Source of the DNA: Synaphobranchus kaupii
Taxonomy: Eukaryota; Chordata; Actinopteri; Anguilliformes; Synaphobranchidae
Direction: 5' to 3'
Assembly: GCA_029718625.1 (NCBI GenBank)
Contig: CM056376.1
Coordinates: 86,904,356 to 86,968,355 of the forward strand
Length of the DNA stretch: 64,000 nucleotides
Shown here: positions 10,266 to 15,255 of the stretch, in pieces
Layout: every line of letters starts with the position of its first letter
How positions within the stretch are numbered: position 1 is the first letter of the stretch
Made by a program: the position numbers and the translations under genes
Notes under the pieces: model-generated
Seen by the model: the letters and a program-made list of their open reading frames with translations, nothing else
What the model was told of the DNA's origin: nothing
Databases searched by the model: none

Positions 10266-11308
10266 GAAGTATGATATCTCACCAAAAATAAGTTTTAAAC
10301 GTAAAAAAAAAAGCCAAGTTACTCACACATAGCCTACAAAGCACTGTCTGTAAGTCCTTAATTCCAACTTGCAAAAACTAGGCCTGCCTTTAAAAGTATT
10401 GATATCAAAATATGGCCAAGTTACAACTAACAATATTGCCTATCGTAGCTCACACTAATTAAACTAGCTATATTCCAAAGCAATGCTATCCAAACTTTCC
10501 TAAATTATTTAATGCAACTTGGCCCTGTGTTTTTTCATCTTAGCATGTGAAGAGATTGTGGTCATTCAAACTTTACATGTCAAATAACAAAAATGGCCTC
10601 ATGCCATAGCAACATAGCCTACATGTAGCATTTTTACAAACCTATCCAGACATGTTCGCCCTGTCAATGTAGCCTACTGTATGTTTGTGGGTCAGATGAT
10701 ACCAAATAAGTAATAGTACTAATTTGTTAACAAAATAATAGTTATGTTATTTGTGAACAGAATTTTGTGAACACAAGAATGTCTAGGCTCTGTAGCACCA
10801 CACAGGTTTCTAATAGAAATCAGAATATTCCAAATAAATACATCAATAAATACATAATAACAATAATACTTTTTATTCATGCTGTGCTTTTCCTAGACCC
10901 AAAGCAGCGGATGCAGAGAATTGTTCAAACATACCATGTAGTGTAGTAATTGCAACACATGTGAATATCAGATTATTTCCACTATAAATTATTGTCCTTT
11001 CACAGTTTGATGTGGCACATAGTTTCATTGACCACATTCTCTTGAGATGGTAAGATGAAAAAACACAGGGCCAAGTTGCATTAAATAATTTAGGAAAGTT
11101 TGGATAGCATTGCTTTGGAATCGAGCTAGTTTAATTAGTGTGAGCTACGATAGGCAATATTGTTAGTTGTAGCTTGGCCACATTTTGATATCAATACTTT
11201 TAAAGGCAGGCCTAGTTTTTGCAAGTTGGAATTAAGGACTTATAGACAGTGCTTTGTAGGCTATGCGTGAGTAACTTGTATTTACATTTTTTGGTGAAAT
11301 ATCACTTC
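10266..11308. repeat. large inverted repeat, arms about 290 bp around a 440-bp spacer
   Basis: The left arm (about 10266-10577) and right arm (about 11020-11308) are reverse complements at high identity over most of their length. For example, gcctttaaaagtattgatat at 10385 pairs with atatcaatacttttaaaggc at 11188, and ggccctgtgttttttcatct pairs with agatgaaaaaacacagggcc. Identity fades towards the centre. No transposase, terminal motif or clear target duplication was seen, so it may be a foldback-type element or a local inverted duplication. Confidence 0.85.
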
Positions 11309-12845: not shown

Positions 12846-13158
12846 CTTGACAAATGGCAATGGGATACCTGTTCCCATAACGTTAGCTATTGCATAAGTG
12901 CTGTGGTGTCCAGTGACTGAATTGTTTAAGTAACAGGCTACAAGTGAACAGTTAATATTGAAAACATGTCTTTGCCTTTGCAATAAAAAGACATTCTTTA
13001 ATGTGGGAAAAACATTCTTGTATGAGAAAACCATAACATGTGCACGCTGTTTTAGTCCAAAATAAAATTACATATTAGTAGGCTACCCGGCAGGGATCGA
13101 ACCCAGATCTCTCATGGTAAGGCTTGACATATACCACTACACCAAAGTTTCTTGGATA
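12846..13158 (-). repeat. tandem tRNA-linked repeat, unit A (SINE-like)
   Basis: On the minus strand this unit starts with a tRNA-like head (13082-13157) and continues into a body containing ttattgcaaaggcaaa and caatattaactgttc. The same order of head and body recurs about 335-350 bases further right as unit B. A tRNA-derived SINE present twice in tandem is the simplest reading. No family name can be given. Confidence 0.6.
13082..13157 (-). repeat. tRNA-like sequence with Pol III A and B boxes (unit A head)
   Basis: The minus strand reads TGGTGTAGTGG (A box, fits TRGYNNARNGG) and, about 35 bases on, GGTTCGATCCC (B box). Spacing is tRNA-like, but the acceptor stem and T-stem do not pair well. 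It is a tRNA pseudogene or SINE head, not a working tRNA. Confidence 0.6.
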
Positions 13159-13195: not shown

Positions 13196-13434
13196 TATAC
13201 GGCAAATGGAACATTTGTTTCCATACTGCGTAACGTTACCTGAAGTGGTGTCGTCTGACTTTCACCATTTCGCTGTAGTACAAGTGAAACATTGAACAGT
13301 TAATATTGTAAACACGTCTTTTGCCTTTGCAATAAAAATATGTTTTTAATGTGTAAATAACATTTAAATCTAATAAATTAAAAGTTGCACATTGTTTTTG
13401 TCAAAAATAAACTTGCACCCTGGTGGGTATCGAA
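13196..13434 (-). repeat. tandem tRNA-linked repeat, unit B body (SINE-like)
   Basis: The body shares gaacagttaatattg, tttgcctttgcaataaaa and the taacgtta region with unit A, in the same order and spacing. Its tRNA-like head is cut off by the hAT-type element and resumes at 14178. Confidence 0.6.
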
Positions 13435-14169
13435 CAGTGGCGGCTCCTGAGCTGAAAATTGGGGAGGCAGAAAACTTCCCTTTAAACTGATTATTGGTCT
13501 TAATCATTTTTCAATCAGTTTCCTTGATTAACAATAGGCTACATCAGCGTTTAATTCACCAATTACTCAATGCCATCAAATGTAGCCAGTTCTTCTCAAT
13601 GAGGCTATTAGGCAAGTAATAAAATTATTTTCACTTGCATCGCATAATTGTGCACATTTTAATCAACATTATAATTGTGGATACATGTGCTCTTCGTTCT
13701 CCGCACTCTTAATTACGAAAATATTCATGGAAATTAAACGATCTGAAAGCTCAGCTTTTGTTAGATTCTTTTTTATTGCAGGTTTAGCACAACCTCATCT
13801 TTTGTTAGATTATTTTAAAAAAATAATTTAAAAAATTATCTAACAAAAGCTGAGCTTTAAGATCGTTTAATTTCCATGGATATTTTCGGAATTAAGAGTG
13901 CGGAGAACGAAGAGCACATGTATCCACAATTATAATGTTGATTAAAATGTGCACAATTTTGCGATGCAAGTTAAAATAATTTTATTACTTGCCTAATAGC
14001 CTAATTGAGGAGAACTGGCTACATTTGATGGCATTGAGTAATTGGTGAATTAAACGCTGATGTAGCCTATTGTTAATCAAGGAAACTGATTGAAAAATGA
14101 TTAAGACCAATAATCAGTTTAAAGGGAAGTTTTCTGCCTCCCCAATTTTCAGCTCAGGAGCCGCCACTG
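13435..14169. mobile_element. palindromic hAT-type non-autonomous element, 735 bp, with 8-bp target duplications
   Basis: The ends are cagtggcggctcctgagctg and its exact inverse cagctcaggagccgccactg. Both sides carry the identical 8-mer gtatcgaa (13427-13434 and 14170-14177). CAGTGGCGG ends with 8-bp duplications are the hallmark of hAT transposons. Almost the whole element is two arms of about 334 bp in inverted orientation (13435 to about 13768, and about 13836 to 14169) around an AT-rich centre. The arms differ only at scattered positions. No transposase frame is present, so it must have been moved by a hAT enzyme encoded elsewhere. Confidence 0.95.
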
Positions 14170-14262
14170 GTATCGAACCCCCAATCCTCTGTGTGAGAGG
14201 CAGCAACTCCAACCAGTCGGCCACAGTGGCTTCATGGGCAACACACAGCCATATAGCGGTTT
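14170..14262 (-). repeat. tRNA-like head of unit B, interrupted by the hAT-type element
   Basis: Removing the hAT-type insertion and one 8-mer copy restores a minus-strand sequence with an A-box-like TGGCCGACTGG and a B box GGTTCGATACC about 40 bases apart. The 8-bp target duplication lies inside the B box itself. Similar to unit A's head and probably a SINE head. Confidence 0.6.
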
Positions 14263-14427: not shown

Positions 14428-15185
14428 ACCAGCAAAATAACCCAAGTTTGGGGCTTTATTGTGTGGATGTGTGAAGTTGTATCTGAATGCTGTGTGGTTA
14501 CATGAGATTAGAACATACAGAAGTAAATGTTTTTAAGGGCTGAGAGTCTGTGGTCATTGTGGTTACTTCTGTAGGAAAGCCTGAAAAGTGCCAAACTCTT
14601 GGTGCTGTATAGGTATGGGGCATGTCACACCAAGCCGTAACTTGGTGGATGGCATACCTGCCATCCCAATTTTGCAGATCATCGAGGTTGGGGCAGTGCT
14701 TGTGGGAATGACATGCAACTCTCGTTTTCTATAATTTACTCGGTCATGCTGCTGTGCTTGATGAGAACAAACTTTATTTCATTTTTAAGGGGCCTGGTTT
14801 TGACTGGAGCATTTCCTCTCCCAGGGCTGAACCAACTTTTGGGCCCACCAGAGTAACAACCATCTGTGACCGAAGACCCAGAGGCACATGGAGTTCCACG
14901 TTGACGAAAGCGGATCACAGTCTTACAATTCTTCTAACAGGATGTTAATTGGATTGCAAATATTTTCACTGTTTAAGGAATATTAACGGCCCTCAGATCC
15001 ATAGTCCAGTGTGCTAAACTTAACACCACAAGATGTGTTAACTTTATACTATGATTTTTGGGTTTGTTTAAATGAGATGGGCATATAGTTTTGGAGCTGA
15101 TATTTGTCTCGTCTGTATCTTGACACAACAACCATTGGCTAGCTAAATGTAAAGTACCTGAATAACAGTGAGTGAGTGCAAACAT

Positions 15186-15255
15186 CATGGCTCTCATAAG
15201 CAAAGCAGTAGTGAAAAGCTCATGGCTCTCCTATGAAGGGCAGTAGTGAAAAGCA
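15186..15255. repeat. 35-bp tandem duplication, two units
   Basis: Two adjacent copies share catggctctc at their start and gcagtagtgaaaagc at their end. They differ in a 9-10 base middle segment. Confidence 0.8.

Follow-up and report, generated by a model that had tools for sequence, protein, structure and literature searches.

A very recent palindromic hAT-like element inserted at the B-box core of a tRNA-headed repeat in Synaphobranchus kaupii

When a transposon sits exactly in the B box of a tRNA-like sequence, was its transposase drawn to the promoter, or did the element simply use a site that its family favours anyway? The question is raised by a near-palindrome of 735 bp at positions 13435-14169 of the window (the whole 64,000-nucleotide stretch of Synaphobranchus kaupii DNA that was analysed), whose 8-bp target duplication GTATCGAA forms the B-box core of a tRNA-like sequence. 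From directly observed anatomy, duplications, empty relatives, target statistics and intact A and B boxes, we consider this very probably an ordinary nested insertion: a young, high-copy, non-autonomous, palindromic hAT-like MITE in an older tRNA-headed repeat, at a site chosen by the local preference of the family.

The element consists of two inverted-repeat arms of 341 nt around a spacer of 53 nt, and both copies of GTATCGAA that flank it are perfect. Its features in the window are:

13427-13434, unstranded: left copy of the 8-bp target duplication GTATCGAA, from sequence reading
13435-14169, unstranded: near-palindromic non-autonomous hAT-like element (MITE), 735 bp, which starts CAGTGGCGG and finishes CCGCCACTG
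13435-13775, plus strand: left arm of the inverted repeat, 341 nt
13829-14169, minus strand: right arm of the inverted repeat, 341 nt, 97% complementary
14170-14177, unstranded: right copy of the target duplication GTATCGAA, from sequence reading

CAGTGGCGGCTCCTGAGC stands at the start of the element and its reverse complement at the end, and no open reading frame of at least 150 aa overlaps its 735 bp. We take the CAGTGGCGG end and the CAG...CTG termini to be hAT-like in look, an inverted repeat that starts with CAG being the hAT convention. The window holds two other repeats. One is a second long inverted repeat, perhaps another MITE, with arms of 279 nt at 10294-10572 and 11021-11299 that are 92% complementary and have 448 nt between them; the other, at 15175-15244, is a 35-nt sequence in two imperfect tandem copies that are 77% alike.

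The element belongs to a large and uniform family. All 40 copies scored in the first genome search (the best 40 of 1444 candidates) are 99-100% identical to the query in one of the two orientations, and recurrence of the focal sequence at this identity in 40 of 40 scored places is more than chance would give. Each of these 40 first-read copies is exactly 735 bp long with perfect 8-bp duplications; their mean divergence from the majority sequence is 0.09% and the largest pairwise difference 0.41%, 19 of them are identical to the majority sequence, and the focal copy is one base away from it. Among 70 readable copies the length is 735 bp in 65, 736 bp in four and 737 bp in one, after exclusion before counting of L072 and L083, for which one element end is missing from the stretch, and of L094, whose flanks are mismatched. 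We conclude that the family is a very recent, high-copy burst, as seen in copies that are the best-scoring ones. Two observations concern single copies: L094 is full-length with two non-matching flanks, perhaps a product of recombination between copies, and the L026 and L028 copies both adjoin the identical sequence tgcatccggaaagt, by its look presumably the end of a Tc1-like transposon.

We determined the target preference of the family mainly from a flank-blind sample. The query of the first 40-copy sample held the focal duplication, so that this sample leans to similar sites, and the sample obtained with a junction query does likewise; the flank-blind sample was drawn with a query of the element only, and the best 40 of 1324 candidates were scored (27 fetched earlier, the focal copy included, and 13 new). 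An 8-bp duplication is present in 39 of these 40, the one without being L094, which is among the new copies, and setting aside the focal copy gives 38 copies counted, to be compared with a background of positions in 20 stretches of 10 kb. NTNNNNAN fits 30 of the 38 flank-blind copies and 8.1% of the background; the corresponding figures are 21 of 38 and 1.9% for RTNNNNAY, 17 of 38 and 0.5% for NTRYRYAN, and 11 of 38 and 1.2% for a simple-repeat context of AT/GT type. In this sample target position 2 is T and position 7 is A in 87% of cases each, and beyond the duplication a T at the third base before it and an A at the third base after it are favoured (72%). For Drosophila elements, too, palindromic target motifs are reported that reach past the duplication (PMC3276498). 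The first sample, for comparison, has NTNNNNAN in 36 of 40 copies (focal included) and TTCGA in the focal copy alone, and places the focal site within the top 1.9% of the background, above 7 of 39 others. Matrix scores are +8.1 bits for GTATATAC, +1.8 for TTCGATAC, -3.0 for TTCGATCC and -3.9 for TTCGAATC. The target of the family is an 8-bp hAT-type palindrome, NTNNNNAN, with its optimum at GTATATAC.

This preference also bears on the superfamily of the element, the hAT assignment of which rests on ends, duplication and target rather than on a transposase. The CAG...CTG end looks hAT-like. An origin in P, or in some other non-hAT superfamily that makes 8-bp duplications, is unlikely: the P element does produce them at palindromic GTCCGGAC (PMC3276498), but the central target bases here are AT-rich and alternating, unlike GTCCGGAC, and T at position 2 with A at position 7 (87% each) is the pattern given for the hAT element Hermes, which prefers nTnnnnAn (PMC10368747), and for hobo, whose target is reported as GTNCGNAC or NTNNNNAN (PMC3276498). 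The element combines the features of a hAT MITE, namely an 8-bp duplication, a palindromic NTNNNNAN target, ends that start with CAG, a short non-coding sequence and near-identical copies, and most likely represents a new family of an established type.

The sequence that received the element can be read by joining its flanks. Without the element these give GGTTCGATACC on the minus strand, with the A box TGGCCGACTGG, and the A box starts 45 nt ahead of the start of the B box. The relevant features of this host repeat are:

14170-14178, minus strand: intact B box GTTCGATAC (fits GWTCRANNC), its register with the A box unchanged
14213-14223, minus strand: A box TGGCCGACTGG (fits TRGYNNANNNG)
about 13083-13150 (limits approximate), minus strand: second tRNA-like head of the same repeat, with B box GGTTCGATCCC
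12945-13016 and 13293-13364, minus strand: two homologous body stretches of the host repeat, common to both heads, at a spacing of 348

The two heads in the window have a common body of 129 columns at 77%. Two different tRNA-like heads on homologous bodies 348 nt apart are an unusual arrangement, and one that recurs in several copies.

Relatives of the host repeat lack the element. When the 79-nt joined sequence was used as an empty-site query, 37 of the 40 scored places (the best 40 of 873 candidates) matched across the insertion point; the remaining three, among them the focal flank, match from query base 11 or 15 onwards. These empty relatives are further copies of the repeat at other places in the genome, as distinct from an empty allele of the focal site. 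The joined tRNA-like sequence and its B box are present in all six relatives fetched (L061-L066); five have GGTTCGATCCC as their B box, the sixth has GGTTCAATCCC. For L062, L063, L064 and L066 the likeness to the focal site spans several hundred bases both ways and reaches the second tRNA-like head; L065 has only the downstream part in common with the focal site, and L061 little past the head. The original prediction, which described a hAT-type palindrome with the corresponding duplication and target, the identity of that duplication with the B-box core of a tRNA-like unit, and a nested insertion whose removal restores a joined sequence, is borne out in each of these respects: by the 735-bp near-palindrome and its 30 NTNNNNAN sites in 38, by the A and B boxes 45 nt apart after joining, and by the empty relatives.

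We rejected a true tRNA gene as the host, as ARAGORN finds no tRNA in the window, the joined site or the six relatives and Rfam gives no match at gathering score in the window. The tRNA-like head of the repeat is degenerate; one of the six relatives reaches an Rfam tRNA score of 17.1 bits, where the gathering score is 29. TGGCCGACTGG and GTTCGATAC provide the A and B boxes, spaced as in a tRNA, that are looked for in a SINE, and the host repeat, which would be older than the inserted element, may fairly be called SINE-like.

What, then, became of the promoter? It is not interrupted, because GTTCGATAC stands on both sides of the element: the B box was copied rather than cut. On the A-box side, the minus strand reads on into the duplication, where GTTCGATAC is intact (14170-14178), and the spacing to the A box is unchanged; on the far side, the left duplication and element base 13435 together build a second minus-strand GTTCGATAC (13427-13435). 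A complete A-box/B-box promoter is thereby set against the palindrome, and a chimeric Pol III transcript could in principle enter the hairpin arm. Such promoter capture is very unlikely. Were it real, it would offer an easy way for Pol III to transcribe a transposon hairpin, and a hAT-like element would gain a Pol III promoter without destroying one.

The original prediction also held that the insertion silences the SINE-like unit, and this reading, in which a working Pol III unit has been shut down, we regard as most improbable. The element does part the tRNA-like head from the repeat body, so that their direct join is lost, and it supplies the first T run (at least four), TTTTT at 14093-14097, 126 nt past the A-box start. 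However, the A box, the B box and their spacing all survive on the A-box side, and a second B box has arisen on the other. The joined empty site has its own TTTTT 73 nt past the A-box start, and in five of the six relatives at least four T occur in a row within 73 nt. The degenerate state of the head, with its sub-threshold tRNA score in a single relative, likewise speaks against a working unit. At the level of sequence, silencing by disruption is not supported. More generally, an 8-bp duplication can preserve a B box, and the rebuilt junction should be checked before a Pol III promoter is called broken.

Also very improbable, in our judgement, is that the transposase is attracted to TFIIIC-bound B boxes and that Pol III units are its preferred target. 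The focal duplication is a B-box core, an A box lies at a tRNA-like distance from it, and GWTCRANNC is matched in the same register by one further copy, L067 (duplication GTATTGAA), which makes 2 of 70 readable copies. Per 1444 copies, a matrix model gives an expectation of only 0.13 GTTCRANNC sites in this register (bootstrap 0.04-0.33), and two are nominally above this; the focal copy was itself the starting observation, L067 was selected for its similarity, and the background sample is small. GWTCRANNC is seen three times in 6928 flanking bases of 58 copies, where 1.9 are expected, the focal copy and L067 being among the three. However, L067 was fetched for the resemblance of its flank to the focal one and has no A box upstream. 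TTCGA is found in 1 of 39 duplications, the focal one, and none of the 38 other flank-blind copies has TTCRA inside its duplication. In the 8 bases beside the exact 18-base element end, TTCGA occurs at one place genome-wide, again the focal one; this single observed site stands against about 0.9 TTCGA-bearing sites expected genome-wide, a figure obtained from a matrix weight of 0.062% on TTCGA-bearing 8-mers (first-sample matrix, background including the window) multiplied by 1444 candidates, and dependent on an uncertain copy number. Scores below background are obtained for TTCGATCC and TTCGAATC, the B-box cores that are commonly seen. Among the best 40 of 2034 candidates, the junction query has one full-length match, the focal copy, with no second insertion at this place in the repeat, and L092, a copy from the flank-blind sample, appears by eye to have landed in the body of this repeat family, off its B box. 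Among the titles listed in the literature searched, none names a hAT element that targets Pol III genes. The suggestion that a hAT enzyme favours the B box is not supported: the flanks of other copies show no B-box excess, and L067 is one weak counter-example.

The focal site differs from its relatives in a way that suits the element. The B box in the focal repeat copy has an A (TTCGATAC) where all six relatives have a C (TTCGATCC or TTCAATCC), and since this A is the A of target position 7, TTCGATAC is the better match to the element's own target. The A probably preceded the insertion, because both duplications carry it. By the flank-blind matrix the focal site lies within the top 4.5% of the background and 6 of the 38 other copies are at lower-scoring sites, so no special explanation of its choice is needed.

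We suggest that the ordinary nested insertion proceeded as follows. A transposase encoded elsewhere would have moved the MITE into the tRNA-headed repeat, at a site picked through the usual NTNNNNAN preference of the family, which is strongest for GTATATAC and often leads into simple repeats. Overlap with the B box would be a coincidence, aided by the single A in the focal repeat copy. Formation of the duplication would then have copied the B box, leaving the promoter not visibly destroyed and the direct join to the repeat body lost. An attractive idea about targeting has tested negative, and the analysis measures which targets a very recent palindromic hAT-like burst prefers.

Among known systems, Dada DNA transposons are similar in position, in that they target tRNA and snRNA genes and the present element, too, is a DNA transposon within tRNA-like sequence; they are reported to have 6-7-bp duplications and strict RNA-gene sites (PMC3706591). 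We rejected membership of Dada for an element with 8-bp duplications at scattered sites. A search of the literature with GTNNNNAC gave no match, and no title in the literature searched describes a palindromic or foldback hAT MITE of fish like this one. hAT elements (hobo, Hermes) and their non-autonomous MITEs resemble the element in their 8-bp duplication and palindromic NTNNNNAN target; unlike these relatives, nearly the whole element is here one palindrome, without an open reading frame of at least 150 aa, and the centre of the target is AT-rich and alternating in contrast to the GTNCGNAC reported for hobo. In Galileo, a transposon of the long-inverted-repeat or foldback kind, very long inverted repeats form most of the element. 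The element described here is Galileo-like in that its inverted repeats make up most of its length, but Galileo is placed in the P superfamily, whereas the target of the present element is hAT-like.
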